From contig NC_077232.1 of assembly GCF_027887165.1 (NCBI RefSeq), positions 15,945,755-16,009,754 on the forward strand: a DNA stretch of 64,000 bases. Reading direction: 5' to 3'. Every line of letters starts with the position of its first letter. Within the stretch, counting starts at the first letter, position 1. Under the pieces are notes generated by a model. That model was not told the DNA's origin. It did not search any database and saw only the letters and a program-made list of their open reading frames with translations. Source of the stretch: Monodelphis domestica (lineage: Eukaryota > Chordata > Mammalia > Didelphimorphia > Didelphidae). The translations under genes were made by a program, and so were the position numbers. Below are positions 4,098 through 61,400 of the stretch, in pieces.

Positions 4098-4298
4098 TTT
4101 TTTTTAAACCCTTACCTTCTGTCTTGGAATCAATACTGTGTATTGGCTCCAAGGCAGAAGAGTGGTAAGGGCTAGGCAATGGGGGTCAAGTGACTTGCCC
4201 AGGGTCACACAGCTAGGAAGTGGCTGAGGCCAGATTTGAACCCAGGACCTCCCATTTCTAGGCCTGGCTCTCCATCCACTGAGCTACCCAGCTGTCCC
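4098..4298 (-). mobile_element. Marsupial tRNA-derived CORE-type SINE
   Basis: Reverse orientation, complete from the oligo-T tract to the head. Flanking direct repeat aacagtgt. Nothing else is visible between 4,300 and 4,630. Confidence 0.85.
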
Positions 4299-14418: not shown

Positions 14419-14565
14419 TTACTGTATGGGGCCATTAGGATGGCTTCCTGGGAATGCAGTTGCTGTGTCAATGACTGGATTTTGAGGCATTGTCCCTCTG
14501 TTGAATGCTTCAGCAGCAGGGTTCTCTGGTACATTGTAGGTATAGGGAGGCATGAAGATAGCAAT
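14419..14565 (-). CDS. MS4A4-like: MS4A copy A, last coding exon (C-tail)
   Basis: The acceptor ggctttacag precedes ATTGCT. It encodes 48 residues starting IAIFMPPYTYNVPENPAAEA and ending GPIQ, then TAA at 14,421-14,419. It is proline-rich, as is usual for MS4A tails. No AATAAA lies close behind the stop. The 3' flank is collinear with copy B and with a relic at 47.7 kb. Confidence 0.88.
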   Translation of the reverse strand: MAIFMPPYTYNVPENPAAEAFNRGTMPQNPVIDTATAFPGSHPNGPIQ

Positions 14566-17500
14566 CTGTAAAGCCAATAGAAAACCCATACATGAGTCAC
14601 CCAGGGGTGCAGAAATAGAACTACAGAGAATATTAGTGTAGAAAAACTAGTGGCATTACTTTTCTGTTGAGAACTGACTCCAGTTAAATGAGAGAAGAAG
14701 GGTGCCATTGAGGATACTGGATGGCTGACCTCTCATATACACTTATTCTTCCTATTAACTCTCAACTCATCTCCCCCAGTGCCCATCACATTTCTGGGTC
14801 TTAATCTTACTCTAGGTTCACTCTTAGCTACACGGCTCTCTGAAACTTGTCCTATAGGTTAGGAAAAGAAAAGGTTGACCATCTTACTGTTGGTTTTACT
14901 TAGTTTAAATATAAAAGCATCACCATAATCCAGATAAGCCTAAATCAACCCATTCCCAGTTAATTAGACTTAAGGAGATGCCATTGGTCTAAGCCAGCGG
15001 TTCTCAACCTGTGGGTTATGTTTGATTTGTAGCAATGAGAACACATAATGCAGATCAGGTATTTACATTCAGAATCATAACTGTAGCAAAATTACAGTTT
15101 GGAAGTAGCCACCAAAATAACTTTTTGGTTTGGGGTCACCGCAACATGAGGAACTGTATTGGTTGAGAACCACTGCTCTGAGCAGAATATCTCTGGTCAT
15201 TTGTGACTTTCTTCCTATCTAGTACTCTTAACTAAGCTGTCAGTGGACACTTTCTAGGGAGATTCATTGTGACAAAGAGAGACACATTACGTATGATATT
15301 ATCAAATTCACGATACCATTCCCTCATCCAATTCCTTTCCCCCCCTCTTGGAAACTGAAATGGATGGAACAGAAAAGATATTTCCTTTCTTCATCTTTTT
15401 TGAATAGGAATACGGAGCCTACCTATTTGGGAGGTGAATGGGGAAGTCTTGGAGGGAGATAGTGGTTTGGGAGAAAGGTCAGAAGGATTTACACATAGAC
15501 TTGTGTCTCTTTGTGCCCAGGATCTTCTGACTGAACTCACTGGTAGCCTTAGGGATTGGTTTGTTTCTGTCATTGGATTTGATGCTTAAGAATATGGAAA
15601 CACACACAAATCTCAGGCTGGCTTCTCTGAAAATGGCTTGTCCTCTCAGTGATCACCACACTGACCTGCTGACTGATCTTCCCAGGAAAATCACTGTAGC
15701 ACATTCCCATGGAAGTCACCACATGCCATCAACTACTCACCTCATTCTGGCCACAGCACAATGCCTTGCAACCAAAGCTGGAGGTGATAATGGAGACCAG
15801 AAATTCTAAGATCGCTAGGATTAACAGAATGACATTGATTCCCTGGAAAAAGGACCAAACAGAAAATGGTTAGTGGTGCACACAAGGCCCTTCGTCTAAC
15901 AGATCAGGTAGAAATGACATAAAGGGGAGCACTGAGAGGGGCAGGTTAAGAGGAGGGGGATTTTCTGGAGACAAACTTTAAGACACAGTAAAGCACCTTG
16001 CAAGCATTAAATTGATATATTAATGTTAACAATATTATTACTACTGTTATTATTAATCATCATAATAACAAAGCACATCCTTGAGATTAACAAAGTATTT
16101 TCTTCACAATAATCCACTGAAAGTTATTGTGCAAAGATGACTATCCTCATTTTGCACATCAGAAGTGGAAGGTTCAGAAGTACAAGCTGCCCTGACTATG
16201 GTCAAATGGATATTCATCCCTTGAGCTCTACACAAGTCATTCTGGCATCCATCTGGCCCAATCCTAGGTACTCAGTACAGATTTGGTTGATTAAAAAAAA
16301 ATACCCCAAACTCTCTACGCAGAGATGGAATCATATCTCCTTTTAGAGAAAATAAATATTTATTGTTTTATCAGTGATCCAGGTTGAATTCATATGATTG
16401 TTTCCTCTAAAGTTTGGTGACTCTGTATTTTTTTAGTCAGTCATGATCTGTTGTCACACCTGTAGCCAATAACAATCTAATCATAGGAGAGTTCTTAAAA
16501 GTGAATAATCTGCTAAGGAATAGGGGAATAAAGGAATTTGTTTGAGGAACTCATACATGGTGAGGCTGTACCTAATCTCTGGATACAGCTTTTCTGATCC
16601 TCTGACCACTGTCTCTTGTTTTAGTAATTCCTCTATTCTAATCCCCAGGCAGGTGAGCCTTGGATACTCTGTCCTGCAACAGTGTCTTGCTCTCTCCTTT
16701 TGTAATAGCAGTGCTCATACCCACCACGGGCCAGGAAAAGGCTATGGCAGACCCTCATCAATTGTCATCCTCTCCTTCTCCCCCCATTTAAAAAGAGAAT
16801 CTCATGGAAATAGGTTCTGATCAAGGACACAAGCAATACCCAATGAAATTGCCTGTTGGCTGTGAGAAGGGTGGGTGGAGGGAAGGGAGGGAAATAATGT
16901 GATTATTGTAACCAAGGAATAATGTTCTAAATTGACTAAATAAACTTATTCAAGTGGAAAAAAATAATAAAAAGGGACCATCTCTCCTTGAACACTGCCC
17001 AAAGCTCTCCTTGACAATTACCGACCTTACCAGTCCGTATCAGAAATGTCTTTTTCCCAATTTGTCCTCCCCCAATTATGAATTAGACAGTGAGTTCCAC
17101 ATAGTATATCACCTCACATATCATGATCACCGCATCATCAAATGCTTTTTTTTCCATGGAATTGAAAGTGAGTGAACTGGAAATATCAATTGTTTTTGAT
17201 CCTTTGCATCTTCCACAGTTGACATTTCTGGCTGAGACCACAGGAAGAAGAGCAAAAATATCAAGGAATTTCCTGTTTCCCAACCCAAGCAACTTGCCTC
17301 TTTTCAAAAGGTTCAGACTTCTTCAGTAACCTCAGTGTTTCTGCCCTGACCTATAAAGATTGCCCATTCCAGAGATCAATCGTCATAACTGGTACCATCC
17401 TGGAAGTACTTACCAGCATTATCGATATTAACATACTGCAGGAAAGAAAGGAAGCTTCGTCGTAACAATAATAAGGGTATGTTACCAAATTGATTGAGAG

Positions 17501-20500
17501 AAAGACGATTCCCAGGCCAGCCACCACTGAGCTGACAACGTTCATTGCTAGGCTGCTTTGGACCTAAAAGCAGTGAGAAGTCAGAAAACAGTCAACCCAT
17601 TAGCACGCGCTTATAGAGCCGCTATCACGTTTCAGCCTTACTTAAGAGCCAAGGCTGAATCTAACTGCAGAATCTGGGAGCAAGTGCACCACGGAGTGTT
17701 CGCTATCTGCAAGGACCAAGGGGAAAACTGCTCAGCTCCCAAAGTCCTTATGTTTTCCCAGGCAGGCAACATGGCATGGGGATGAGGTTTGGTTCTTGGC
17801 ATAAAGCTAACTGAGAAGATTGAGGGAACTGAAAACTACAGAGGAGAATTTTGTACTTCTGCTGGTCTGACTATATATAGGCTTTAGCAGGCAGCAATCT
17901 GAACAATGGGAGAGCAGTCATTAGTGATTGATTCTCCTTCTCCTCCCAAGGAAAAGCTCAGCCATAGAGCAGTGATCAGTCAAACCTGCTCCAGCCCAGC
18001 CTGGGTTAAGGAGGTTGTCTTTTAAGTCTCCTTCCATGTACCCCCTCCCATTCCAAGAAATTATCAGAGTCTGCCTCAGGCCTGCACAGAAAGGAGAAAT
18101 GTCACTTACCATAATATCTGTGGTTCTCTTCTCCGCAGCAATGGAGAGGGAGCCAGAGATGATGAACTGTGGACAAACATCAACATCTTAAACCCTTCTC
18201 TTCTTTCAATAATATACAAAACCTTCCCTATCCATCATTGAACCCTGCTTCTTCTATCCCTAAGGACGCGATATCTCTGGTGGATACATTAGATGCTCCC
18301 AGGAACCTCTTAAACATTTGGACAAAGAACTAGTGGACAGGAATTTCTTTTTCCATCATAAGAATTAGAATAAATCACTTTGAGGTCAAATAAACTTGGC
18401 AGAAAAAAATAGATGGCTAGTGTCATATAGTTTGTCTTTGATGAGATCTTATTCCCTTTTAGTGGTGACTAATTCCCTTTTTAACATACATTGGCCCATC
18501 ATAGGTGATACATTCTAGAATTATGCCCAGATTGAAGTCAAGCTCAGTGATTTATAGTTTGAAGACCACACTGTCTTTTCTTTCTCAACAATCAAGATGA
18601 ATGCCATCCCCCAGTCCTGAAGCACTTCTCCTATTCTCCATGATTCCTTCAAGGTTACTGATAGAGGCCTCCAACCAATTCTGATTTTTCTTTCATGTAT
18701 TTTCATATGTAACTTGATCTGGACCCAGTAATATGAAGCAATTAAAGGGAAATGGTTTTAAGAATATTATTTCTTTGCTTTTGTCTAGCAACACCTTTCT
18801 TTTTTTTTTTAACCCTTACCTTCCATCTTGGAGTCAATACTGTGTATGGGCTCCAAGGCAGAAGAGTGGTAAGGGCTAGGCAATGGGGGTCAAGTGACTT
18901 GCCCAGGGTCACACAGCTGGGAAGTGTCTGAGGCCAGATTTGAACCTAGGACCTCCCATCTCTAGGACTGGCTCTCAATCCATTGAGCTACCCAGCTGCC
19001 CCCCTAGCAACACCTTTCTAATAGCTATTTTCCCACTGCAATCCAAAGGTTATTCTCTGGCAGAAAAAAATAAGTATTGAGGAGCCTTCTTTACATAATC
19101 CAGTATAATGCTCATACCTCATGTGAAGAACTACATGAAGCACTTCCTATTCCACCCACTTACTATGGCTCCCTGAAATTATAATGTCTTTATCTTGAAT
19201 CTGTTTTATGCAAGGGAGATGGGGATTGGTATGTTCTTCTCTTCCTCTCCCTATTGCCACAGTCAAATTGCATGAACCATAATAGGCAACAAAAATTGCT
19301 TGTTGATTGGCTGATTGATTGATTTTACTCTCAAATCTGTGTACCATGAACAACTATAGCAGACTTTTCTTTGGATATGGATATGTATGAGTATATGTAT
19401 ATATGTATGTACATATATGCATACTTTATTTGTATACAAATTACTTTCCAAGCCCTTCTAGCAATTAAAGTAAATATATGATAAAGGGATTGTACTTCAT
19501 GTATTCATTAAAGTAGGACCCTTAAAGAATTTTTTCTAGAACCTCCCAGTTTTTTACTCTATATTATTGAAGGTAATGTGTGTTTATTACTAAAATGATT
19601 CCATCATTCTGATTTTAATCAATTTTGCCTAATTCTTTCCAATTATTATACCATGGATACAAATATGAAAGACAAAAAGACTAAATTTGTTACACTATGG
19701 GAAGGACACTGGGTGGGTGCATCTATTTATCTATATGGATGGATGGATGGAAAAATGGATGGATATGTGTATGTTAAATGTTTATAATATGTGTGGATAA
19801 ATATGTGTGTATGAAACATGTGCATATACACATATATACACACATTCCTTTAGGTAGATATAGCTATTTATGTATATAAACAAACCATTCTGAGATCCAA
19901 AGATAAAACTGCCCCATCTGATAAATATACCGAAAGGACTTGTTGGAAAATAGAAAAATGAGATGATAAATCAGCCTGTAAATTCCATTACATATGTCTG
20001 TTTCCTTTTTTAAAAAATAGCCAACAAACTGGATTGGTAATATGAGAAGATAATATAAGGATTACTGGGATCACACTTGGCAAACGTGGTTTGTTTGTTT
20101 TTTTAGTTTCACATCACAAGGCAGAGATTAATCACTAAAAACATGAAAGCATTGGAAGTTATAGCAGTGAGGAAACTGGGGGGGGGGGGATGGCAAAAGG
20201 TGAACACAGATGAATATCAAAAGGCAGAAGAAAAAGAAGAGATAGCTTAGCCTAACAAGATATGCTGATAATAGAGACTAATGCCTGCTATCTTAAGGAA
20301 GATGAGTAGAGAAAGGCAGCTCAGCTACAGTCAGCTTAGAGAGATGATTGAAGGGAAAAGTTCCCTGAAACCACTGGAAGTTCATTGGAAAAGAAGCACT
20401 GCTTTGCTCCCAGATGATTGGAGAAAGCAGAATCTTCTCCCATTTGAAGATCTTCCTGAGCTTATTGTCCTCTACCTCCTGAGAAAGGGGAAAGCTTTTA

Positions 20501-23500
20501 CAGTTACTTGTGTTTCTCAATGCTGTTTTTTGTAGCTGAAGAGAAGAAGAAAAAGCAGAGTAAAGATGAGGCTCAAATCTCTTTTGCTTTGTGCTACACT
20601 GATATATTTTGTTTCGGGGACTTGTAAGTATAACAGTTTAACAGTTTCTCAGCATCCTTCCAAAGATGACTGGGTCATATCTGTGGTCCAAGAGTAATAG
20701 AGAAACTGATTTTCATAGCAGGAGAGTGATGGGGATGAGAAGGGAAGAAGAATGAGAAGTATAAGTATATACACATGTTATGTATATATATATATATAAT
20801 GTGCATATATATAGCACATCTATTTATGTATCTATCCTCAACTTTCTGGGGGCAATGCCCTAAAAAAAGTATGAAATCAAAAACACAAATATTGATTCTT
20901 TGAACCTATGGGAAATAGATGGTAGGTATTTGTGATCACCAAAAAATGTAATCTATTATTTAGAATCTGTCTTAGAATCAATGCTGAATATTGGTACCAA
21001 GGCTGAAGAGTGGTAAGGGCTAGGTAATGGGGGTCAAGTGACTTGCCCAGGGACACCCAGGTAGAAAGTGTTTGAGGACAGATTTGAACCTAGGACCTCC
21101 CATCATTAGGCCTGCCTCTCAAACCACTGAGCACTTTAGCTGCCTACTCTGCTTACAATTCTTCATAACAAAACATTAATTCTGATAATATATACTTTTT
21201 ACAATATTGTAACCATGAAATAACCCACAAAATACAGTACACAAAATAAAATTAGTAAGATATATAACATTTTTTCCTAGTAATTACCCAGGATTCGATG
21301 ATCTTTTATGATAACATCTCAATTATTTAAAAAATTATTTCCAGAAATATTCACGTTTTTCATCACATGAAATCTACATTACCATAAATACTATATAGCA
21401 AATTTCCTAGCATCTGTGACCTTTTGTGTTAACATCTCAATTAAAAAAAAACACTGTACAGAACATAATCACTTTTCATAACACATGAAATCTAAAATGT
21501 CATAAACACTATACCTCAAATAAAATTCTCAAAACTAAAACATTTTAAAGCAGAATCTTATCTCCCACTGTGTCAGATGGTGGTGGTAAGGTATTGCATG
21601 ACATACTCTATGTCTCTACCTTGGAGACCTTCTCTAAAAACAATGGAGAGGTTGTTGGGACTTTAATCACTATTGTAAGAAGACCCCAATGCTGAGGTCT
21701 CAACATCACCTACAATATTCTGTCCTTCATGGCTGATGGATAGCAATGGAGATCATGAGGGATACTTCAGCTTGAAATAATACTCAAGCAATGGTTGCTT
21801 AAAGTATTGGTTTGAAATCCTTAAAAGTCTCAGGGTTTGGGAGCATAGCATAGGATATGATGTTTAAACGTGAGGCTGGGATGATGGGATTGGCAGTCTC
21901 TAGGTGTCTAGTCAACTGATGGATTTAGACCACAGTGGTTGGAGACATTCCAGCATGAAGATGTGGTTTGGAGCCCAAAGGACTTGGAGTACACTTTGGG
22001 GGCATAATTGTAAAAAATGTAAAATTTAAATTAATATCAGTGACTCTAGGTTCTTATTTTTCCATAGAGTTTTATTAATAATCATTTGAGGTAGAAAAAA
22101 TAAAAAGGATAGAAGTATAAGGCCTAATTTTCTAACCTAACTGACCATGTGTGGATTCTCTGACCTGGTTCCCAGCCAGTCTCCTCAACCATGTTCCAGG
22201 AAGAGGAGAGAGAGGGCGGTGCCACACCAAAATTTTATCCTCCATCCATTCACTCAGCATTCATGCAGCATGAGTATGCACATGGGATGCTGGGTAAGAT
22301 GGGCTTTGGAGAGAGAATTCTACCTACACACACACAACTTGAGTTTTAAAGGCAATGAAAATATGCAACAAATACACAGAGAGCTCTTTAATCTGTGATG
22401 TGAACAAGACAAGTGAGATACACGATAGGATACTGAGACATCGGTCCCATTGGACCTCAGTCTTGTTTTGTTTCCTTATTGAACATAGCTGCGAATAGAC
22501 ATCATTCCCAATGGGAAAGTGAAAATGAAGTTGCTACTAAAATCATCCAAATGCTCAAGATTGGGGAAAGTTAATTGCGTGAATGTTGAGGATTGATGTA
22601 TGTCTGCATATCTATAGCCAAACATACATACATACTTCATATACATATACATATATTTCAACTCTTACCTATATGTTTATATATGTATATATGAACCCTT
22701 CCTCATATGGATATGAGCCTGTGCATCAACCCTTCTGAGGGTTGAGAGAAAGAAACACCTTGCACAGAAGGCATGTGTCATTGGGACGCAGGTTGCCTTC
22801 TGTCTCCAAGGAACAAAGAGAGAGAATACATTTCAGAAATAGATTCATTATCTGTACTCACAAATGCTGTTCCCCAGAATACGTAGCCAGTGTACCACAG
22901 AAAATATGGTGATCCATAAGCATTCTGAGGAATGAAACCAAAAAGCATGCCTAAGCTGAGATTCATGATGGCGACCATGATCTGGACAGTCTGGAAGAGA
23001 AAGAGATTCAAATTAGAAGAGAGAAAAAAAGACTGATGCTCTTCTTTCTGGACATGGAGCTACCGAAGCAGAGGGTTAATTTTAAATTAATTATTTAATT
23101 GAATTATTGACTGGAATTTTAAATAAAAGAAATTAGAATTGACTTCCAGCGCCACCACTTATAATCTCTAGAACCCTGGGCAAGTTTCTTTGTCTCTGGG
23201 ATTCAGTTTCTTCATCAGTGAAATAAAGGGGCTGGACCAGAAGATCTCTAAGATGTCTTGTTGCTCGAAAATCCTATAATCATATGAGTTTATGAGACGC
23301 GGAAGCATCATGTGGTAGTGAGTAGAGAGCTAAGTAAGGTCAGGAAGAACTGCTTTCAGAGCACACCTCTTATATATACTGATGGGGTGGTGTGTAGACA
23401 CTTGATTTAACTTCCTAATATCCCTGGAAATTTCCGAAGATCTTGAATGAAAGAATTGTCATACTTGTATTTAATAATGATTTTTTTAAAAGCTCACCGT

Positions 23501-26468
23501 TAAAATGAAATCAGAGGACCAGAATAAAAAACTAATCAATTCAACAATTGAAATTTTATAAATGTAATTATATTAAATAACACATATAGTGACTGTTGTT
23601 GCATCATACTCAACTCTTCCTGACCCCATTTGGAGTTTTCTTAACAATGATATTGGAGTGATTCTTCATTTACTTCTCCAGGTCATTTTACAGCTAAGGA
23701 AACAGAAAAACAGGGTAAAATGACTTGCCAAGGGTCACTGAGGTAGTAAATGTTGGAGGCTGGATATGAATTTAGGAATATAAGAATTCCTAACTTCAGG
23801 CCCAGTTATCTAAATACTGAGACACCTAGCTGCTCCAAAGGCATATAGAATACAAAGTGGAGTGTTTACTCTTTTTTTTTTAAACCCTTACCTTCCGTCT
23901 TGGAGTCAATACTGTGTATTGGCTCCAAGGCAGAAGAGTGGTAAGGGCTAGGCAATGGGGGTCAAGTGACTTGCCCAGGGTCACACAGCTGGGAAGTGTC
24001 TGAGGCCAGATTTGAACCTAGGGCCTCCCATCTCTAGGCCTGGTTCTCAATCCACTGAGCTACCCAGCTGCCCCCGGAGTGTTTACTCTTAATAAGGAAA
24101 ATATCAGAGGCAATGTTGCATGGTAGAAAAAGAGCATGTCTGAGTCATAGTGACCTGGATTAAAGTTCTGCTTCTGATACAAATGGGCTATGACATGTTG
24201 AACAATTCATTTAAGCTCTCTGGGCCTCAGCTTCCTCATCTGTAAAAGAGGAGCATTGGATGCCATTATGCCAAAGATTCTCCCACTTCTAAATTCATCA
24301 TATTATAATCCAATGATTTCTCCTCTTTCATACACTGTCAGTATTATCCTAGGCAAGTGACCTAGACTCAAAGAATATCCCCCAACCCCCTAAACTATGT
24401 GAACAGCTTAATTTTGGCAAAGCAGGTTTTCTCTTTAAGATCACCTTACACCAGTTAATCCCATCTTACATCCCAAACCAAGGGAAAGACATCTCGTGGG
24501 CCACCATGGAGGCTTTCATGGTGAGTTGCAGAAACTTAATGCTATCTAGAAAACTGATGTGATTCTGTATTCCTGGGATAGCCATCCTCTATAGGACATC
24601 CTTAGAAGCCAGTTTGCCCTTTCCCCATTCTTCCATGAAGAGAATAAACAAAATCAACACTTAATGCAATAGCTTGGAAAGGTTAGTGTAATTTCCATTA
24701 CAGCTAGAGCTTGATTGAAATTAATGTCTTGATCTTCTATGATCCCAACAAATTGATGCCTTAATGGTTGTGATGGAATAAACTCTAAAAGACTCACAAG
24801 AAAGTCAAGCACTAAATTTCTGCATGTGTCAGAAATTGGAAAATGCTAAAAAACAGTACTTGATTCATTATTTTATTGATTGAGATTGAAGAAATCAATG
24901 TAGAAAATCATGATTAATAATAATGAAGATAACAATTAAAAATAATGATGAAGATTAAAACTAAAAGTGTGTCGTGCTGACATTTTCCCCAGAACACCAG
25001 ATCTTCAACCTACACCAAAACACAATCATCCATGATCCAAGGACAGATAATAGAGACAAACAGACCTCAGAAATTGGGTTCATGTATACCTGTGGAACAT
25101 GAAGGAAACATTCACCTCACTGAAATGCTGAGGGATGAGAAATTCCCCTTTTTCCCTTCCTCACAGCAGTCTTCCATCTTAGTCAACTATGACGCCTTCT
25201 CAGAGGAGATGTTGGGGCAAGAAGGGGAACCAGAGACTTCCCTAGGAAATCCTACTCTAACGCACTCCCCAGAGGGAGTAGAACATGGCAGAATCTCCAA
25301 TACATTGTTATGGTGGTTCCCATTTCTCCTCATATTCATAGCCAAACTGAAGACCTCATTTAGCTCCTTCCTTTCCCCTGCCTCCCCTACACCTGTCCAA
25401 GCTAAAAGGCTTCTAGCATGAGCCCTAGATATAGAACCCCACACTGAGTTCTCCTTAAGTTTCATTTCAGTACTGATTTAGAGCAGGACATTCAGGAAAC
25501 AGATGGAAATATCCCTCTCTGACACCAAATAGGTATTTCCTGGGTGCCTCGTCCAAGTCTAAGCCATCCAGAAAGCTGCTGAGTCACTGAAACATCACAA
25601 TGCTGAGGCAGCCAATAGCTGGAATGGAAATAGCCCAGAATTTTGAGAAGAGAGTCAGGGATTCACATTTGTGCACTGTTCTTGAGTCCCATCTACGTGA
25701 GTTATTGTACCTCTTTAACTGACTCATATGCAAGAGGCGGAAGACTTTTCACATGATGCAACATGGATTTGTAGTCAATGATTTTGGTTCAAAATGGAGG
25801 TTTGCTACATCTTCATTCTGTAACCTTGGGTGAGCCACTGAACCCATCAGAACTTCAGTTTCCTCAATTGTATAATGAGGGAAAAGGGTAAATGAGATGA
25901 CTTTTTGAGGTTCATGCAAGTTCTCACAGTATCAAAAGAATTATTTTTTTTTATTTTTTTAATTCCATATTGTTCATTTTTAAGTAATCATATAAAACCA
26001 AGACTGTCAAAGAAAATCCAAATAAACAGGTGAGAAATCACATGTTTTCATCTACATTCCAACTCCAATAGTTCTTTCTCTGAATCTGGATAACATTTTT
26101 TGTTTTAATTAACTTGATGATTTTTAAGGTCAGTTAATCATTCAACAAACATTTATTACACATATGCTGTATGTCAGGCTATTCTAATCTCTACCAATAT
26201 GCAAATAAAAGCAAAACCAATTTCTTCTGTCTCTCAAACCTCTAAACTGGTAAGTTACTCAGTTAAAAACATAAATCTGCTCTCCCAGACACGAGGGACC
26301 TGAACTCACCCCCAGTGCCTTGGGATCTCCTTTCAGGACTTTCTGCTGGGGGTCTTTCCATAGATGTTGATAGTGTACAGGTACAGCAATTGGCCCCTGT
26401 GGGAAGTATACAGGGCCTGACTGAGGAACGAATGGAAATACTCCCTTTGAGGCACCCTGGGACTCCAT
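14419..26468 (-). CDS. MS4A4-like: MS4A4A-like four-pass membrane protein, copy A (six coding exons)
   Basis: Coding exons, in transcript order: 26,468-26,310; 22,990-22,862; 18,166-18,110; 17,563-17,414; 15,842-15,741; 14,565-14,419 (stop included). All introns are phase 0 with GT/AG ends. The protein is 247 aa; human MS4A4A is 239 aa. Layout: cytoplasmic N-tail 1-53, with HLWKDPQQKVLKGDPKALG just before TM1 (HLWKGLQEKFLKGEPKVLG in MS4A4A as I recall it); TM1 about 55-73; loop 1 about 74-85; TM2 about 86-110, including FIISGSLSIAAEK; TM3 about 122-142; loop 2 with a Cys pair eight residues apart; TM4 about 161-190; C-tail. MS4A proteins act in plasma or endosomal membranes, as immune-cell partners (CD20, FcRbeta) or olfactory chemosensors; which applies here is unknown. 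An L1 sits 20 bp upstream of exon 2. The non-coding exon 1 and promoter were not found. Confidence 0.92.
14995..15175. mobile_element. Short hAT DNA transposon (SPIN/Charlie-type MITE)
   Basis: Terminal inverted repeats cagcggttctcaacctg and ggttgagaaccactg, with the inner phrase gtagcaaaattacagtttgg and ggggtcaccgcaacatgagg. Flanked by 8-bp duplications gtctaagc and ctctgagc. Copy B has the uninterrupted site ggtctaagtagaata at about 53,318. No transposase is encoded. Confidence 0.88.
15741..15842 (-). CDS. MS4A4-like: MS4A copy A exon 6 (TM4)
   Basis: 34 codons between ttccag and GAG|gtgagt: GINVILLILAILEFLVSII, then TSSFGCKALCCGQNE. This is the classic MS4A fourth membrane segment, ending in a FGCK motif with three cysteines that are candidate palmitoylation sites. 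Confidence 0.92.
16802..16968 (+). mobile_element. Short 5'-truncated L1 3' UTR insertion, arm A only
   Basis: catggaaataggttctgatc, then ttgcctgttggctgtgag and gggtgggtggagggaaggga with an A-rich end matches the L1 3' UTR at 42,020-42,165. Copy B runs straight through the site (ttaaaaagggaatctctctcc, about 54,957), so it postdates the duplication or was lost from B. It lies in intron 5. Confidence 0.75.
17414..17563 (-). CDS. MS4A4-like: MS4A copy A exon 5 (TM3 and loop 2)
   Basis: 50 codons between cttttag and CTG|gtaagt. VQSSLAMNVVSSVVAGLGIV begins TM3. The loop holds Cys-YDEASFLS-Cys, matching the loop-2 disulfide pair known in CD20. The first 77 bases are almost identical to copy B and the loop half is strongly diverged. 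Confidence 0.93.
18110..18166 (-). CDS. MS4A4-like: MS4A copy A exon 4 (end of TM2)
   Basis: The 57-bp exon typical of MS4A genes, 19 codons: FIISGSLSIAAEKRTTDIM. The acceptor is tccacag and the donor ATG|gtaag. It is the best-conserved exon and the one that first fixes the family. Confidence 0.95.
18801..19003 (-). mobile_element. Marsupial SINE in intron 3 of copy A, absent from B
   Basis: A complete element whose 16-bp target duplication ctagcaacacctttct is perfect on both sides (18,785-18,800 and 19,004-19,019). Copy B has a single ctggcaacacctttct at about 56,927-56,942. Confidence 0.93.
19130..21970. other. Intron 3 block of copy A with no counterpart in B
   Basis: Homology to B stops after tataatgctcatac and resumes near cccaaaggacttggagtaca. 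The block is AT-rich, with ggat and atgt microsatellites (19,730-19,860), a G run at 20,177-20,188, an 84-codon plus-strand frame at 20,281 with no known relatives, a degraded SINE, and paired near-repeats at 21,290-21,540. I see no gene in it. Confidence 0.6.
20963..21146 (-). mobile_element. Old marsupial SINE copy
   Basis: Reverse orientation, diverged and lacking a clear T tract, with the core gtgacttgcccagggacacc. It lies inside the A-only block. Confidence 0.75.
22030..22250 (+). repeat. Dispersed LTR-like repeat, copy 1
   Basis: taggttcttatttttccata, gttttattaataatcatttg and cctaattttctaacctaact recur in the same order at 32,270-32,480. Copy B lacks it at this place. The composition and polyadenylation-like start suggest an old retroviral LTR. 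The family is not identified. Confidence 0.5.
22862..22990 (-). CDS. MS4A4-like: MS4A copy A exon 3 (TM1, loop 1, start of TM2)
   Basis: 43 codons between tctcttccag and TTT|gtgagt. TVQIMVAIMNLSLGMLFGFI forms TM1, PQNAYGSPYFLW loop 1, and YTGYVFWGTAF opens TM2. The downstream frame runs into the intron for a few codons, which is not coding. Confidence 0.93.
23590..23836 (+). repeat. MAR1-like CORE-SINE shared by both arms
   Basis: tgaccccatttggagttttc, then ctccaggtcattttacagct, aaatgacttgccaagggtca and a cctagctgctcc end. The same copy is at 60,518-60,770, so it predates the duplication. Confidence 0.75.
23874..24075 (-). mobile_element. Marsupial SINE in intron 2 of copy A, absent from B
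   Basis: A complete element with a perfect 15-bp target duplication ggagtgtttactctt (23,859-23,873 and 24,076-24,090). Copy B has the single site gagtctttactctt at about 60,817. Confidence 0.93.
24115..24300 (+). repeat. MIR-like SINE shared by both arms
   Basis: gtgacctggattaaagttct, gctctctgggcctcagcttc and tcatctgtaaaagaggag follow MIR order. The partner is at 60,855-61,020. Further MIR-like tails shared by both arms are at 23,140-23,275 / 60,055-60,190 and 25,770-25,925 / 62,500-62,655. Confidence 0.65.
26310..26468 (-). CDS. MS4A4-like: MS4A copy A exon 2 (start codon, N-tail)
   Basis: The ATG at 26,468-26,466 opens 53 codons (MESQGASKGVFPFVPQSGPV and on to GDPKALG), ending at a GGG|gtgagt donor. 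The acceptor is cttcttacag, 16 bp before the ATG. That ATG is chosen because copy B has it at the same place and the upstream frame is L1 sequence. Its pyrimidine tract is now the left target duplication of an L1. Confidence 0.88.
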
Positions 26469-48439: not shown

Positions 48440-49724
48440 ATATAAACTACAACTATTAATTTAGCTAATTGACTACTTGTCCCTATCCAAGTAGTGTGAG
48501 GATAATATGACATGGCCTTTCAGTGTTAACTTGTCCAATATATTTAGCTGTTCCATCCATAAACCAGCCATGTTCTTTATCATGAACTTTAAGGCTAACA
48601 TATCCTTTATTCCACTGCACATAACAATTTGTTATATCTGGATTCATTTGTTTGGAATCTAAGTTTTTAACAATCCTGCCCTTGAGTTATTGCCATAAAC
48701 TCTATGTGGCATAATTATCCTGAATTAACACTTGTATTTCCACTCACCCATATTGCATGGACCACAAATCTAAAGTAGATGTAGGACAGCTTTTAGCTTC
48801 TTCAAAGTCTTTATTTTCATCCGGTCCCCAAGAAAACTCACGTTTTCCTAATCACTTTATATAAATTTACAGTATCTGAACCTCCAATAAACAATATATC
48901 TATAGGATAAGTTTGAAATTTTGAAAAGAACCTTGAATTTTCAAAGGATTTTTCCATCCCTTCCATTGCTTTTAGCTTGTTTAAAAATTCCTCGTACACA
49001 TATACTGCATCTATAAGTTCTTGCTTTACTACTATCTCTGGTTGTCTTATCATCATCTTCAATCAAAATTTAGTCAAGCTATCAAATCAGTGTATCAAGA
49101 GCTCTTAAGTTACTTAAAGTTCATGTGAGATAATTTATTTAATCATCAACTTATTAATCATATATCAACAATCAACTCATTTGGTCATTTGGGACATGAA
49201 ATGTTTATTTTAAACTTTCATAATTTAAAACAGGTTCTTGTTTTGCAGGGCCGATCACTTTGCCCACTTAAATGACTCCTTAAATTTTACAAGTATATAG
49301 TCAAAATATTTTTCTCTTTAAATTTTCTAATAGCATAAATAGCATTTTTATCTTTTTCTTTGCTATTTTAGTTCTTGAGTTTCAATGAATAATAATTACA
49401 GACATTTTTTCTCTTGCCATGTATCAGGAAATGGATAATAAGTTTGCAGGCAGCTTTCTAACTCCTTAGCAGCATTAATACAAAGCTGTCTTATTTCTAA
49501 TTTATTATGGCTTCATCTCCCAGTTTGTATACATCACTGAGAAATGAGAAAAAAATACTTTTTTATTACTAACAACTTTCTCTTTATACGTCTTCCTTTA
49601 CTTATAAAACTTAATTTTTTTAAACTTTCACATTCTCTTTCTCCCAATGGATTTTAATTAAAAACCCCACAGCTTTCAGATGGACTTTGATAATGTCTAT
49701 AAATAATGTTTTCCTTAATTTTTC

Positions 49725-49931
49725 TTTCTTTTTTTTTAAACCCTCACCTTCCATCTTGGAGTCAATACTGTGTATTGGCTCCAAGGCAGAAGAGTGGTAA
49801 GGGCTAGGCAATGGGGGTCAAGTGACTTGCCCAGGGTCACACAGCTGGGAAGTGTCTGAGGTCATATTTGAACCCAGGACCTCCCATCTCTAGGCCTGGC
49901 TCTCAATCCACTGAACCACCCAACTGCCCCC
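49725..49931 (-). mobile_element. Marsupial tRNA-derived CORE-type SINE
   Basis: Complete in reverse orientation with target duplication tccttaatttttc at 49,712-49,724 and 49,932-49,944. Little diverged. Confidence 0.92.
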
Positions 49932-52332: not shown

Positions 52333-52476
52333 CTATACACTATCATCAGGGTGGCTTCCTGGTAGTGCAGTTGCTGTGTCAATGACTGGATGTTGAGGCA
52401 TTGTCCCTCTGTTGTATGCTTCAGCAGCAGGGTTCTCTGGCAAGTAATAGGACGAGGGAGGCATGAGGATAGTGAC
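52333..52476 (-). CDS. MS4A4-like: MS4A copy B, last coding exon (C-tail)
   Basis: Acceptor ggctttacag, then VTILMPPSSYYLPENPAAEA and 27 more residues to SHPDDSV and TAG. 47 codons against 48 in A, with the end of the tail changed. Confidence 0.88.
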   Translation of the reverse strand, partial: VTILMPPSSYYLPENPAAEAYNRGTMPQHPVIDTATALPGSHPDDSV

Positions 52477-55400
52477 CTGTAAAGCCAATAGAAACCCCAT
52501 ACATGAGTCACATGAAGGTGAAGAAATAGAGCAATAAATAGTATTCATGTAGAAAAACTAGTGAAAATACCTTTCTGTTAAGAACTGTTAAGCAACAGAT
52601 AAACAAGAGAAGGATGATCAACATCAGCAATGGTAGCATCAATATCATCAACATCAACATCATCAACAGTATTGTCAACATCATCATCAGCATCACCAAC
52701 ATCAACATCAAACAACCCACCTTTTCCTGGTCCAGGAAAGATTTTTGCTGTGTGGTCTAACCAAATTGTATACTATGCAGAGTATACTATGAATGAGAGC
52801 CAAAAGGTGTAACCTCTAGGCTTGAGTGCCACTATGTGCCCTTTGGGGGTAAAAAGAAAGCTTTCTTTTTCCTGGCCCCACTTTCCTCATTTAAGTATGA
52901 GTGAAGCTTATCTGGGCTCTGCAATAAGTTAATCAATTAAGTCAAAGGATAAACCAGATATAAAAAAGAAAAAATGTTTCTACATATAACTGAAATAAAT
53001 AAATATTTCTAAAAGAATGCAAAAAAAGGAGGATGCTATTGAGGACACTGACTGACTAACTTCTCATATACATTCATTTTTCTTATTTACTCTCAACTCA
53101 TCTCCCCCAGTGCCCGTCACATTTCTGGATCTTAATCTTTCTCTAGGTTCACTCTTAGATACACAGCTCTCTGAAACATGTCCTAAGGGGTTAGGAAAAG
53201 AAAAGGTTGAATCTCTTACAGTCTGTTTTAATTAGTTTAAATATAAAAGCATCACCATAATCCAAGTAAACCCAAGTCAATGGATTCCCAGTTAATAAGA
53301 CGTAAGGAGATGCCATTGGTCTAAGTAGAATATATCTGGTCATGCCTCATTAGTGACTTTCTTCCCATCTAGTACTCATAAGTAAGTTGTCAGGGGCTGT
53401 GCCCCACACACTTTCTAGGGAGATGCAGTGTAACAGAGATGCATTATGTATGATATCAAATTCACGATACCATTCCCTCATCCAATTCCTTTCCCCCCAT
53501 CTTGGAAACTGAAATGGATAGAACAGAAAAGATATTTCCTTTCTTCGTCTTTTTTGAATAGGAATACGGAGCCTACCTATTTGGAAGGTGAATGGTGAAG
53601 TCTAGAAGGGAGATGGTGGTTTGGGAGAAAGGTCAGAAGGATTTACACATAGACTTGTGACTCTTTGTGCCCAGGATCTTCTGACTGAACTCACTAGTAG
53701 CCTTAGGGATTGGTTTGTTTCTGTCATCGGATATGATGCTTAAGTCTCAAGCTGGCTTCTCTGAAAATGGCTTGTCCTCTCAGTGATCACCACACTGACC
53801 TGCTGACTGATCTTCCCAGGATAATCACAGTAGCACATTCCCATGAAAGTCACCACATGCCATCAACTACTCACCTCACTCTGGTCACAGCCCAATCCCT
53901 TGCAACCAAAGCATGAGGTGATAATGGAGACCAGAAATTCTAAGATCGCTAGGATTAACAGAATGACATTGATTCCCTGGAAAAAGGACCAAACAGAAAA
54001 TAGTTAGGGGTGCCCACAAGGCCCTTCATCTAACAGCTCAGGTAGAAATGCGGTAAAGGGGAGCACTGAGAGGGGCAGGTTAAGAGGAGGGGGATATTCC
54101 GGAGATAAAACTTAAGACACCGTAAAGCACTATGCAAGCATTGAAGTGATATCTCAATATTAACAATATTATTACTTCTGTTATTATTTATCATCATAAT
54201 AACAAATCACATTTTTTAAATTCACAAAGTATTTTCTTTACAATAATCTGTTGAAAGGTATTGTTCAAAGATCCCCATTTTGTACATCAAAAAAGGAAGG
54301 TTCAGAAATACAAGCTGCCCTGTCTATGGTCACATAGATTTTCATCCCTTGTGCTCTACCCCTTACACAAGCCATGCTGGCATTCGTCTGGGCCAATCAT
54401 GGGTACTGGGTACAGATTTGGTTGATTAAAAAAGTACCCCAAACACTCTACACAGAGATAGAATCATATCTCCTTTTAGAGAAAATAAACATTTATTGGT
54501 TTATTGATTATCCAGGATTCAATTTCTATGATTGTTTTCCTTGAATATTTGGTGGCTTCTGGATTACTTAGTCAGTCATCGGCTACTCCCTGAGTTTCCC
54601 CCAGGCCCCACCAAAAATCCAATCATAGGAGAGCACTTAAAAGTGAATAATCTGCTAAGGGATAGGGGAATAAAGGAATTTGTTTGAGGAACTCATACAT
54701 GGTAAGGCTGTACCTAATCTCTGGATCCAGCTTTTCTGATCCTCTGTCCACTGTCTCTTGTTTTAGTTATTCCCCTATTCTAATCTCCAATAAGGTGAGC
54801 CTTGGACACACTGTCCTCCTGTAACAGTGTCTTGCTCTCTCCCTTTGCAATAGCAGTGCTCACACCCACCACAGGCTAGGAAAAGGCTATGGTATACTCT
54901 CATCAATTGACATCCTCTCCTTCAACACTTTCTTGACTTGCCACCCACTCTCCCATTTAAAAAGGGAATCTCTCTCCTTAAGCACCACCTGAAGCTCTCC
55001 TTGACAATTACCTTACCTGTCAATATCTGAAAGGTCTTTTTTCCAATATTTGTCCTCCAATTAAAAATTAGATAGTAAGTTCCATATAGTTTATCACCTC
55101 ACATATCATGATAACTGCCTCATCAGTTATGTATTTTTGAAATTGAATTGAAAGTGATTGAACTGGAAATATCAATTGTTTTTGATCCTTTGCATCTTCC
55201 ACAGTTGACATTTCTGGCTGAGACCACAGGAAGAAGGCCAAAAATATCAAGAAATTTCCTGTTTCCCAACACAAGCAACTTGCCTCTTTTCAAAAGGTTC
55301 AGACTTCTTCAGGAACCTCAGTGTTTCTGCCCTGACCTATAAAGATTGCCCATTCCAGAGATCAATCATCATAACTGGCCCCATCCTGGAAATACTCACC

Positions 55401-58400
55401 AGAAATATAGACTTTAATATAATGCAGGAAAAATGGGAACCTTGTTCACGACAGTCATAAAGGAATATATGCGTTAGGAAATTGATTGAGAGAAAGATGA
55501 TTCCCAGGCCAGCCATCACTGAGCTGACAACGTTCATTGCTAGGCTGCTTTGGACCTAAAAGCAGTGAGAAGTCAGAAAACAGTCAACCCATTAGCACGA
55601 GCTTATAGAGCCGCTATCACGTTTTGGCCTTACTTAAGAGCCAAGGGTGAATCTAACAGCAGAATCTGGGAGCAAGTGCACCACTGAGTGTTTGCTATCT
55701 GCAAGGACCAAGTGGAAAACTGCTCAGCTCCCAAAGTCCTTATGTTTTCCCAGGCAGGCAACATGGCATGGGAATGAGGTTTGGTTCTTGGCATAAAGCT
55801 AACTGAGAAGATTGAGGGAACTGAAAACTACAGAGGAGAATTTTGTACTTCTGCTGGTCTGACTATATATAGGCTTTAGCAGGCAGCAATCTGAACAATG
55901 GGAGAGTAGTCATTAGTGATTGATTCTCCTTCTCCTCCCAAGGAAAAGCTCAGCCATAGAGCAGTGATCAGTCAAACCTGCTCCAGCCCAGCCTGGGTTA
56001 AGGAGATTGTCTTTTAAGTCTCCTTCCATGTACCCCCTCCCATTCCAAGAAATTATCAGAGTCTGCCTCAGGCCTGCACAGAAAACAGAAATGTCACTTA
56101 CCATAATAGTCGTGGCTCTCTTCTCTGCGGCAATGGAGAGGAAACCAGAGATGATGAACTGTGGACAAACATCAACATCTTAAACCCTTCACTTCTTTCA
56201 ATAATATATACAACCTTCCCTATCCAGTCATTGAACCCTGCTTCTTCTATCCCTGACGACGTGATGTCTCTGGTGGATGCATTATATGCTCCAAGGAACC
56301 TCTTAAACATTTGGACAAAGAACTAGTGGAAAGGAATTTTTTTTCCATCGTAAGAATTAGAATAAATCACTTTGAGGTCAAATAAACTTGCCAAAAAAAA
56401 AGAAAAGAAAAGAAAAGAAAAGAAAGGAAAGGAAAAGAAAAGAAAAAAGAAAAGAAAAGAAAAGAAAGAAAGAAAAGAAAAGAAAGAAAAGAAAAAAAAG
56501 AAAAGAAAAGAAAAGAAAAGAAAAGAAAAGAAAAGAAAAGAAAAGAAAAGAAAAGAATGCTAATGTCATATAGCTTGTCTTTGATGAGATCTTATTTCCT
56601 TAGTGGTGACTATTCACCTTTTGAGACATACACTGGCCCATCATGGGAGATACATTCTACAATTATGCCCAGATTGACGTCAAAATCAATGATTTGGAAT
56701 TTGAAGACCACACAGTCTTTTCTTTCTCAATAATCAAGATGAACGCCATTCCCCAGTCCTAAAGCACTTCTCCTATTCTCCATGATTCTTTCAAGGTTAC
56801 TGCTAGAGGCCTCCAGACAATTGTACTTTTTCTTTAATGAATTTTCATATGTATCTTGATGTGAGCCTAGTAATATGAAGTAATTAAAGGGAAATGATTG
56901 CAATAATATTATTTCTTTGCTTTTCTCTGGCAACACCTTTCTGGTTGCCATTTTCCCATTGTAATCCAAAGGTTATTCTCTGGCAGGAAAGAAAAATAAC
57001 CATTGAAGAGCCTCCTTTACATAATTTAGTATAATACTCTCAGCAATTTTAGGAATTATGGGGGTAATTTCAGAAACACATTTAGGAACAACAATTTTAG
57101 AAATGGCAGCAATTACAACTGAGGCACTTTTAGAATTGAAAATGGTAGATACAGTGATACAAACAGTAACCAAAGTAGTAACCTAGATCAAGCAAATGAA
57201 TTATTGCAATATATTAGGAATAGGGCATGTCTAACAAAAAGCCAAAATCAAAATGCAAACAATATTCAAAGAGAAGAATTCCCAAAAGGGACACATGGTC
57301 CATTATGAAGGTGTAATGGGAGATAGGGCTATAGAATCAGAGACTGAAAATTTTCAATTTCCAGACCCAGAAATATTAACACCTATTATGCCTGTTCAAA
57401 CCCCTAACAGTGTTAACAAAAGATATAGTCTCAGAACCATTAAAACTTAGTGCAGAATATATTAGAGATTTGCAGATTAAAATCAAGGAATTGCATGAAT
57501 TAGGAGCAATTCTACAGGCTGGACCAATAGATTTTTCATTGCATGATATACATCCTGGAGATATGATGTACATTAAGAACTTTAACAGAACAGGAGCAAC
57601 TTTGCCAGCCTGGGAAGGTCCATTCCAGATGCTTTTGACAACACCAACACCCGTTGTTCCCATGTAAAGAGAGTACCATTAGTTGAAGTTGAGAGTCAAG
57701 AAGGAACAAATGGACAACTGGAAAATAGGATAGTATTTTCAAGCACAATGGACTAAACCTAGAGACTATTAGAAAGGACACTGTACTATAATGAAAACAA
57801 TGGACACTGGATTATTTCAAGGACACTGAACTTCCCATTTAAATGAAAGGTTTGATTTTTGTACTTAAAGGTTTGTTTTATAATGTAATAGTAAATGTAT
57901 AATTTATGGTTTAAAAATTATTCTTCTTGATATAAAAACAACATATTAAATAGTAATATTAATAACTTAAATAATGAATAAATAAAATAATCAAAATAAA
58001 ATAAAATAATGAATAGATATTAAAAATATAAAAATTAAATATTGAAGAAAATATCTCAGCAGGTACCTGAGGGGGGAGGCATACCCACATCTGGGGGGAA
58101 TATTATTATATGTAATAAATGGAATAATGTGTTGCAAGTGTTTTTACATAGTAACTAAGTTGAATTGGAATCATTATCTTTTGGTTGTGCTTTTGTAAAG
58201 TATAGTTGTTAAAAGTATGTTATTTTTGTAATTAGAAATGTCTAAACCTGAAATATCTATATATAATAGGTGACCAAGATGTTTTACTTTCATTCTTTCT
58301 TCCTTCCTCTCTTTAACTCTTTGTGTTTTAATTTTAGAATGAGTTTAGTTGGGTTACTTGATTCTTTGGGGAGATGGGTCTCCCAGTGAATCACAGGGGG

Positions 58401-61400
58401 GTATATTGTGATGAGAATTTATTTAGCTTTCATTAAAAACAGGTTTCAGGTAAGAGAAAGGGTTTGTCCACTTTTACCCTGTCCCCTTTAAGAGGCCTAG
58501 GATAAAGGACATTCAGTTGGGGAGTTCTGGGTCCAACCTCTCTGACTTGTTTTGGAGAGAGTTGGGGGCTGGGTCATTCTCTGATAGAAAAGAAGATTTG
58601 TTTGTTATTTGTGGTAGTTTGATTTGAGATTTGAGATTCATACTGAGCTAAGAGAATGTTTACTGAGAGCTTTTCCCTGCTTCACCAGAGGGGGCGCTGA
58701 AGAGCAATCTTGTGTGACCTGACAGAGACTTGGACCATTGGAGAGAAGACAGAAAGAGGAGCTTCATCAGCTTCTCTGTGAAGTGAAACTGACAGTTCCA
58801 CTTGAAAGTTTGATTTAATATATTATTTTAAGGAGGCTTTAGAAGATAAAGAATCCAAATCAATTTAAGATTTTAAAATTTCACTTAGGATAAGATAGTA
58901 ATTTAGAATTTCATTTTTATTCAGAGAGTATAGTTAAGTCAGGTCTGTTTTCAGACAAGAAGAAACTCCCCGAGGAGTTAGTTTGGAGGAGGGGGATTAA
59001 TTTTGATATATTAGCATGAGATTTGAACTTTACACATAACATAACGTTAATATATCCTCTCCTAGTTTCAACTCTTGTTTTCCTTTTTATACCTCTCCTC
59101 CATAATGAATTCAAGTCATATTAGACTGCACATGGCCTCAATCCACCATCTATATACCATTTCAATATGTCAGCTTTAGCAGCTTCAGTTTGATCATAAC
59201 AGTGCCCAAAGGACTTGCACTACACTTTTGGGGCATGATTGTAAAACAAAACCTGAGCTTTAAAGACAATGAAAAGATGCAACCAATGTACCAAGAGCTC
59301 TTTAATCTGGGACGTGAACAAGACAGGTGAGATACTCAGTAGGATGCTGGGCGCTTGGTCCCATTGGGACTCTGGTTTGTGTGTTTTTTCTTATTGCACC
59401 TAGCTGTGAATGTGCATCATTCCCAAGGTGAAAGTGAAATTGAAGTTACTATTAAAATGATCCAAATATTTGATTTTGGTGAAAATTAAATTCATGAATG
59501 TTAAAGATTGTATGTCTGTGTCTGTATATCCAAACATTCATATATACATTATATACATATATTTTAACTATTACCTCTGTGTTTATGTATATATATATAC
59601 CAACCCTTCCCCTTATGCATATACTCATGAATATCAACTCTTCCCCAAATCCCCAACTGGAAGTAGAGAAAGAAACACCTTGCACAGAAGGCCTGTGTTG
59701 TTGGGACGCAGGTTGCCTTCTGTCTCCAGGGAACAAAGGGGAAGAATACATTTCAGAAATAGATTCATTATCTATACTCACAAATGCTGTTCCCCAGAAT
59801 ACGTAGCCAGTGTACACCAGAAAATGTCTTCTACCATTAATATCTTTAGGAAACAAAACAAAGAGCATGCCTAGACTGAAATTCATGAAGGCAATCATGA
59901 TCTGGACAGTCTGGAAGAGAAAGAGATTCAAATGAGAAAAGAGAAAAATGACTGATCCTCTTCTCTCTGAACATGGAGCTAATGCAGTAGAGGGTTAATT
60001 GAAAATTATTATTTAATTGAATTATTGACTGGTATTTCAAATAAAAGAAATTAGAATTGACTCTCAACCCCACCACTTATAACCTCTATAATCATGATCA
60101 AGTTTTTTTGTCTTTCTGGGATTCAGTTCCTTCATTCGTGAATTGAAGGGGCTGGGCCAGAAGATCTCTAAGATGTCTTGTTGCTCTAAAATCCAATAAT
60201 CATGAATTCATAAAAGGCAGAGACATCATATAGAGAGCTCAGTGAATAGAGAGCTCTGTAAAGGTCAGGAAAAACTGCTTTCAGAGCCCACCTCATACAT
60301 ATAAGGATGGAGGGCTGTATAGACACTTGATTTAACTTCCTAATATACCTGGAAATTTCCTAAGATCATGAATGAAAGAATTGTCATACTTGTATTTATA
60401 ATGATTTTTAAAAGCTCACTACTAAAATGGAATCAGAGGACCAGAATAAAAAACTAATCAATTCAAAAATTAAAATTTAATAAATGTAATTATATTCACC
60501 CAAATAACACATATAGTGACTGTTGTTGCATCATACTCAACTCTTTTTGACCCTATTTGGAATTTTCTTAACAATGATATTGGAGTGATTCCTCATTTAT
60601 TTCTCCAGGTCATTCATTTTACAGCTAAGGAAACTGAGAAAAGCAGGGTTAAATGACTTGCCAAGGGTCACTGAGGTAGTAAATATTGGAGGCTGGATTT
60701 GAATTTAGGAATATGAGAATTCGTAACTTCAGGCCCAGTACTCTAAACACTGAGATTCCCAGCTGCTCCAAATGCATATAGAACATTTGACAAATTCTAA
60801 AGCTTTTACAAAGTAGAGTCTTTACTCTTAGTAAGGAAAATATCAGAGGCAATGTTGCATGGTAGAAAAAGATCAGGTCTGAGTCATAGTGACCTGGATT
60901 AAAGTTCTGCTTCTGATACAAAGGGACTATGACATGCTGAACATGTCATTTACTCTCTCTGTGCCTCAGCTTCCTCATCTGTAAAAGAAGAGCAATGGAC
61001 TCTATTATGCCAAAGATTTTCCCAAAATTCATCATATTATAATTCTTTGATTACTTCTCTTTTGTACACTGTCAGTATTATCCTAGGCAAGTGACCTAGA
61101 CTCAAAGAATTTCCCCCAACTCCCTAAACTATGTGAACAGTTTAATTTTGGCAAAGCAGGTTTTCTCTTTAAGATCACCTTACACCACTTAATCACATGT
61201 TCCATCCCAAACCAAGGGAAAGACATCTCGTGGGCCACCATGGAGGCTTTCACGGTGAGTTGCAGAAAGTTAATGCTATCTAGAAAACTGATGTGATTCT
61301 GTATTCCTGGGATAGCCATCCTCTATAGGACATCCCTAAAAGCCAATTTTCCCTTTCCCCATTCTTCCATGAAGAGGATAAACAAAATCAGCACTTAATG

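Follow-up and report, generated by a model that had tools for sequence, protein, structure and literature searches.

A stretch of 64,000 nucleotides from the opossum Monodelphis domestica (the window; contig NC_077232.1, positions 15,945,755 to 16,009,754) carries two tandem genes of the MS4A4 type, called A and B here. A sequence-only reading had taken them for a near-identical pair whose exons diverge far more than their introns, through diversifying selection on ligand-facing loops and possibly gene conversion in the introns. Both genes are real, and they are not alone: a third copy, C, and five further genes, D1 to D5, lie within 210 kb of the window's right end. Tandem MS4A4 copies have probably been reshuffled by conversion while selection keeps their extracellular loops different. 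The evidence for this comes from the mosaic structure of copy C and from the loops of D1 to D5.

Segment exchange among genes A, B and C

Genes A and B lie on the minus strand with six coding exons each. Their reading frames are uninterrupted and their splice sites canonical; for the first coding exon of each, the donor and the ATG were checked and the acceptor was judged by eye. The interval first proposed for gene B, 55400..59910, falls in a real gene and covers only exons 3 to 5 of a coding span of 52,333-63,200. The topology used below, with four transmembrane (TM) helices and two extracellular loops, is that of the MS4A family as described in the available part of PMC11663944.

26310..26468, minus strand: gene A coding exon 2 (ATG, cytoplasmic N-terminus); identity 98.1% with copy C, 84.9% with B
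22862..22990, minus strand: gene A exon 3 (TM1, extracellular loop 1, start of TM2); loop 1 at about 22,889-22,936
18110..18166, minus strand: gene A exon 4
17414..17563, minus strand: gene A exon 5 (TM3 and extracellular loop 2); diverged loop-2 island at about 17,414-17,490
15741..15842, minus strand: gene A exon 6 (TM4)
14419..14565, minus strand: gene A exon 7 (C-terminus, stop); protein of 247 amino acids
63042..63200, minus strand: gene B coding exon 2 (ATG)
59782..59910, minus strand: gene B exon 3; identity 96.9% with copy C, 81.4% with A; loop 1 at about 59,809-59,856
56102..56158, minus strand: gene B exon 4
55400..55555, minus strand: gene B exon 5; diverged loop-2 half at about 55,400-55,483
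53875..53976, minus strand: gene B exon 6
52333..52476, minus strand: gene B exon 7 (stop); protein of 248 amino acids

Copy C lies to the right of the window, where 200 kb and then 20 kb more were analysed. Coordinates there continue those of the window and are marked as extended.

98,560-98,718; 94,268-94,396; 89,158-89,214; 88,475-88,630; 86,973-87,074; about 85,880-85,981 (extended): the exons of copy C, with its own start and stop, open frames and canonical splice sites

The second exon of C is 98.1% identical to that of A and 84.9% to that of B, and its third exon is 96.9% identical to B and 79.8% to A, so segments have been exchanged or homogenised between copies. The block in which A and C agree against B runs for about 300 bp over exon 2 and the adjoining intron. 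The block in which B and C agree against A takes in exon 3 together with about 1 kb of intron 3; B and C also have in common additional sequence of this intron that A lacks. Intron 4, by comparison, is closest between A and B among the three pairs. Three tracts mark these patterns.

17564..18109, minus strand: intron 4 of gene A, homogenised tract; 13 of 546 sites differ from the B copy at 55,556-56,101
26166..26429, minus strand: tract with A=C against B in runs of 11, 10 and 12 successive variable sites; it reaches over much of exon 2 into the adjoining intron 2
22335..22925 in A, minus strand (B counterpart at about 59,249-59,845): tract with B=C against A, intron 3 and half of exon 3; runs of 51, 14, 20 and 13 variable sites

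Over 943 variable sites the A/B/C pattern switches 408 times, against a mean of 637 in 5,000 shuffles (standard deviation 14, minimum 592), and four runs of 25, 51, 23 and 20 sites were matched in none of 10,000 shuffles. The run test covered columns outside those of intron 3 in which A is unaligned. Exon 7, where C carries a 14-codon deletion relative to A and B, was omitted from this test and from the exon-flank test below because C is misaligned there in the three-way alignment. Among D1 to D5, exon 3 rejects the exon-5 tree (approximately unbiased (AU) test p=0.0004, Shimodaira-Hasegawa (SH) test p=0.0025), while in the reverse direction the rejection of the exon-3 tree by exon 5 is weak (AU p=0.048, SH p=0.088). 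These comparisons show that the copies share segments in conflicting patterns, so that blocks of tens to hundreds of bases, whole exons included, have been exchanged or homogenised. The likeliest process is non-allelic gene conversion, which had first been offered only as a possibility; exchange between copies as such is strongly supported by the mosaic of C and the shortage of pattern switches.

Near-identical tandem copies are error-prone to assemble, and an assembly artefact or collapsed haplotypes might be suspected behind these patterns. Protein records of Monodelphis domestica speak against this: B and C match P0001 and P0002 exactly, and A differs from the UniRef record P0003, listed without a contig, at 4 of 247 residues (5, 129, 152 and 198); these records may come from other assemblies or from this one. 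Frames and splice sites are intact as well, and we regard an artefact as scarcely credible. The residue differences between A and P0003 may be polymorphism or recent conversion. By eye, P0003 has at residues 5, 129 and 198 the residue found in B and C.

Loop-focused change in D1 to D5

The extracellular loops of mouse MS4A proteins evolve fast. Diversifying selection on the loops, as proposed from A and B, is not established for that pair and is significant by three kinds of test in the sister genes D1 to D5.

About 128-147 kb (extended): D1
About 156-163 kb (extended): D2
About 210-219 kb (extended): D3
About 241-253 kb (extended): D4
About 261-272 kb (extended): D5

The frames of these genes are open until an early exon-7 stop common to all five; splice sites were read out for D1 to D4 and, in D5, for exons 6 and 7. 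Their exon 2 is nearly invariant, with 3 of 52 codons variable in amino acid. In the two extracellular loops, 25 codons vary in amino acid and 1 varies only synonymously, compared with 24 and 16 elsewhere (Fisher p=0.0011). Pooled over 10 non-independent pairs, non-synonymous and synonymous differences number 88 and 13 in loop 1, and 89.5 and 0.5 in loop 2.

Purpose-written codon likelihood code was used to estimate the ratio of non-synonymous to synonymous change (dN/dS, or omega) for the loops. It gave 7.2 for both together (p=0.0004), 3.96 for loop 1 alone (p=0.039) and a value at the search's upper bound for loop 2 alone (p=0.0009), with 1.05 for the transmembrane parts of the same exons. 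The joint result holds when the loop limits are set in five different ways (p from 8e-5 to 0.0035) and with the two trees swapped (1.7e-4). A comparison of site models M2a and M1a, which presets no loops, is significant too (p=0.0011); the sites that it picks are codons 24 and 29 of exon 3 and codons 21, 35 and 37 of exon 5, with codon 21 falling in the TM3 part by the limits used. Within the limits of these tests, loops 1 and 2 of D1 to D5 are shown to change amino acids much faster than synonymous change predicts, and the rest of the protein is not.

Exons and introns of A and B compared

The individual differences reported between A and B were recovered on alignment. Intron 4 shows the roughly 13 differences claimed (2.4%), exon 3 differs at 24 of 129 nucleotides, changing 14 of 43 residues, exon 2 has 17 of its 53 residues changed, and exon 5 differs at 2 of its first 77 bases before a difference-dense loop half that is two codons longer in B. 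The cysteine pair keeps its spacing, with eight residues between the cysteines (C-8-C) in both proteins. At base level, A and B are identical over 83 bases across the junction of intron 4 with exon 5; two single differences follow, and then the dense block that encodes loop 2, with its two-codon length change. The tails that differ would be cytoplasmic, judging from the family topology in PMC11663944, as far as its available text goes.

The broader claim, that exons diverge far more than introns, stands for exons 5 and 4 of the A-B pair and fails for exons 3 and 6 and, at the 5% level, exon 2. Divergence of each exon was compared with that of 200 bp on each side, in 15 comparisons with uncorrected p values; for the D copies, flank figures above about 25% were excluded as apparent misalignments. 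Between A and B, exon 5 differs at 16.7% against 4.5% in its flanks (p=9e-6), exon 4 at 14.0% against 4.0% (p=0.005) and exon 2 at 15.1% against 9.2% (p=0.08), while exon 3 (18.6% against 14.8%, p=0.33) and exon 6 (5.9% against 7.4%, p=0.83) do not exceed theirs. Exon 7 differs at 17.7%, its flanks over 200 bp at 11.0% and 20.0%. Exon 5 also stands above its flanks between A and C (13.3% against 4.5%, p=6e-4) and between B and C (9.0% against 4.0%, p=0.034), and exon 4 does so in neither pair (p=0.35 and 0.75). After correction for the 15 comparisons only exon 5 of A-B and A-C would stay significant, and its excess lies mainly in the loop-2 half.

Intron 4 is the extreme case of similarity between A and B. 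The aligned parts of the other introns diverge by 7.4-19.0%: 7.4% in intron 2, 9.6% and 19.0% in the two aligned parts of intron 3, 13.7% in intron 5 and 10.8% in intron 6. The difference in exon 3 was considered as a signal of selection and rejected, since the neighbouring intron is similarly diverged and copy C matches B there.

Counting gave dS 0.198 and dN 0.159 between A and B, a ratio of 0.80 (bootstrap 0.55-1.22), and ratios of 1.32, 0.68, 0.27, 1.41, 1.56 and 0.46 for exons 2 to 7. The values well above 1 that had been expected in exons 3 and 5 were thus not reached, and likelihood estimates across A, B and C are 0.80 for exon 3 (p=0.63) and 2.43 for exon 5 (p=0.087). It is true that most differences between A and B change the amino acid (81.5 of 111), and this is what would favour diversifying selection on the exons of two duplicates with little exchange, the strict form of the sequence-only reading. 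Non-synonymous sites, however, make up nearly the same fraction of all sites (568.8 of 738), hence the ratio of 0.80. The strict form is also at odds with the mosaic make-up of copy C and with exons 2 and 3, whose divergence does not significantly exceed that of their flanks. We therefore hold the strict form to be very improbable.

Synonymous divergence in the exons of A and B is 17.4% of sites, higher than in any aligned intron part but one, the 19.0% part of intron 3. Since it exceeds nearly all intron parts, it suggests that the exon blocks are older than the homogenised introns and not merely richer in amino-acid change. Two outcomes that had been named in advance as telling against selection were in part found, namely high synonymous divergence in exons and, in C, exons 2 and 3 that match different paralogues.

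Weighing the explanations

Several results weigh against conversion combined with loop selection. A, B and C alone are without robust positive selection: their loop-only omega is 1.4-2.8 with p from 0.04 to 0.45 depending on the loop limits, their site test is not significant (p=0.49, degenerate fit), and amino-acid-variable to synonymous-only codons stand at 23:2 in loops versus 58:16 in the rest (p=0.23). Synonymous divergence between A and B in loop 2 is 0.26 (3.0 changes in 11.5 sites), which selection on amino acids alone does not produce. Moreover, 1.1% of 5,824 overlapping intron windows of 69 columns diverge between A and B as much as the exon-5 loop does, so strongly diverged islands are not confined to exons. 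For D1 to D5, the loop limits were fixed after the alignment had been viewed, though they are consistent with the family motifs (PMC11663944, available part); recombination can inflate site tests; and the conflict shown by the exon-5 tree vanishes when the exon is extended by 100 bp into intron 4 and by 400 bp into intron 5 (AU p=0.46).

Much of this would be accounted for by mosaic conversion with relaxed constraint, under which blocks of different age adjoin, the exon differences mark old blocks that conversion has passed over and that purifying selection constrains weakly, and no diversifying selection is required for A and B. The overall A-B ratio, the divergence of exon 3 at the level of its flanks, the diverged intron islands and the codon counts in A, B and C all agree with it, and the loop-2 block, at 0.26 synonymous divergence against 4.5% in its flanks, looks older than its surroundings. 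This explanation leaves the D loops, with their 25:1 codons and omega above 1, unexplained, and we consider it possible without favouring it.

The loop-2 block could also have been imported by micro-conversion from an unseen donor locus, as in the segment switching of venom genes. Its sharp 5' border, its two-codon length change and its high synonymous divergence are what such an import would leave. A genome DNA search with a 1,051-base query (A exon 5 to exon 4, the loop-2 block included) listed A, B and C at 92-100% and the D copies at 68-82%; apart from these it listed one short match, of 75%, to an exon-5 remnant at extended 67.8 kb. A genome protein search listed just three weak matches outside the array (E 0.2 to 4), and neither search listed a close copy to the left of the window. 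These counts are lower bounds, because a genome search with the Pfam CD20 family returned three exon matches only (on C5 and at 13.0 and 13.3 Mb of C6), none in the array, and so missed the array's real exons. On these lower-bound searches a donor import seems unlikely.

Conversion among tandem copies with selection on their loops is thus the explanation that we prefer. Tandem copies would undergo non-allelic gene conversion, by which blocks without a selected difference become alike, and loop variants that differ usefully would be retained against homogenisation. The loop-2 island of A, B and C may be kept different by the same selection as in the D genes while its surroundings were homogenised; loop selection in A, B and C, and its link with exchange, are what we infer here. 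Conversion would also bring loop 1, loop 2 and tail of different copies together in new combinations, and the loops may serve to bind ligands or partners that vary, whether chemicals from outside or immune partners. A bolder version, which we put forward tentatively and think rather doubtful, would make conversion a combinatorial generator: loop 1, loop 2 and tail, evolving as separate modules, would be combined anew among eight tandem MS4A4 receptors, and selection would preserve the loop differences against homogenisation, giving the opossum an expanded receptor repertoire outside the G-protein-coupled receptors (GPCRs).

The MS4A4 array and its surroundings

The array comprises at least eight apparently intact MS4A4-like genes, A, B and C and the sister set D1 to D5, as judged from frames and splice sites. 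Pfam CD20 (PF04103) matches over the whole core of A (102.6 bits) and B (103.8 bits) at a cut-off of 27.9, and the solved structures that match B by sequence are FcepsilonRI beta (MS4A2) and CD20. The family motifs are LGxxQI and LSLG in TM1, GYPFWG, FIISGSLS, SLxxN, and SxxxAxxG in TM3, and loop 2 usually holds two cysteines (PMC11663944, available part). By eye, LGTVQI, GYVFWG and SLAMN are present in both A and B, with small departures from the listed words, and A has LSLG, FIISGSLS and SSVVAGLG where B has FSLG, FIISGFLS and SSVMAGLG. Among 36 listed matches, all marsupial, 34 are named MS4A4A-like or MS4A4A, one MS4A8 (gene A's own record) and one MS4A3; the assignment to MS4A4 follows the names of these nearest records and not a tree of all human MS4A members. 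For the sister set, D1 corresponds by eye to P0026, D4 to P0022 and D5 to P0025, and D3 follows the shorter record P0033 almost to its end; D2 has no record among the protein matches listed, which were clustered at 90% identity.

In the protein tree, A, B and C form a clade (support 99/96) that excludes two Gracilinanus relatives, and D1 to D5 form another (98/95) that excludes the Gracilinanus D-type, with Gracilinanus sampled by three proteins. The array in its present form looks specific to the Monodelphis lineage: either the A/B/C and D copies arose after the split from Gracilinanus, or later conversion would have made the copies alike. For P0061, an MS4A6D-like protein from Gracilinanus, the 284-kb stretch gave no match at E<=0.001.

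An MS4A-like exon-5 remnant with an in-frame stop lies at 34,920-35,048 of the window (minus strand), and similar ones lie near extended 67,844, 104,182 and 114,948, which suggests old pseudogenes repeated along the array. A lone, well-preserved MS4A4-like exon 2 (54 amino acids) at extended 105,621-105,782 has no intact partner exons nearby and looks, by eye, like Gracilinanus P0004. Between and after the D copies there are open stretches that resemble exon 6 of another MS4A-like gene, at extended 207,171-207,272, 238,152-238,253 and about 283,443.

Repeats are also present in the window. An uninterrupted frame of 1,284 amino acids at 26,715-30,569 (plus strand), just upstream of the first coding exon of gene A, has the reverse transcriptase and endonuclease domains of an open reading frame 2 of the long interspersed element LINE-1 type. 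In intron 3 of gene B there is a long (aaaag)n-type repeat at 56,400-56,560, and the sequence at about 57,000-59,200, shared with C and not alignable to A, is retroelement-like by eye. A dispersed repeat of about 200 bp, typical of a short interspersed nuclear element (SINE), occurs in at least 10 copies on both strands, among them 2,752-2,968, 4,080-4,297, 18,799-19,001, 23,871-24,073 and 49,724-49,931.

Comparison with known systems

The array proteins resemble the MS4A4 subgroup in their CD20 core, their MS4A4A-like names, the family motifs and the loop-2 cysteine pair. They differ from the subgroup as known in the number of apparently intact copies in one opossum array, the conversion mosaics and the loop-focused change. 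Zuccolo 2010 (PMC2826416, available part) reported that marsupials have fewer MS4A genes than placentals, and described MD_3, an odd opossum gene derived from a single genomic clone, whose six MS4A units all come closest to MS4A3. MD_3 shares with the present array its opossum origin and its tandem MS4A units; in contrast, each of A, B and C has a start and a stop to itself, and the MD_3 units were likened to MS4A3 and not to MS4A4. Compared by description, MD_3 may be a fused model of such an array.

By analogy with relatives, the function of the array proteins may be chemosensory or immune. MS4A4A is known from macrophages and mast cells (PMC11663944). The mouse MS4A chemosensors of necklace neurons belong to the same family, and alpha-linolenic acid is a previously described in vitro ligand of mouse MS4A4B (PMC11026480); the opossum genes, unlike these, are known here from sequence alone. 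According to the same source, in its available part, MS4A proteins are mammalian odour receptors outside the seven-transmembrane GPCR families, within which all earlier ones fall, and a review states that the evolutionary ancestry of such receptors is less well known (PMC7776563, available part). As a young array in which loop-focused selection is significant and exon exchange can be seen, the opossum genes offer natural chimeras, such as C with its A-like N-terminal tail and B-like loop 1. Comparing the ligands or partners of such chimeras would reveal which loop sets specificity. The array also carries a caution, namely that a comparison of two copies alone can take conversion for selection.

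A literature search, with most subscription papers outside its reach, found no report of this array's conversion mosaic among the papers listed. The nearest published pattern found, going by the available part of its description, is accelerated segment switch in exons to alter targeting (ASSET) in snake venom genes (Doley 2009, PMC2711939). There too a short exon segment is radically altered at the protein surface while the introns are highly similar. The opossum genes differ in that a third copy shows exchange of blocks that include neighbouring introns, and only the loop-2 island is switch-like.

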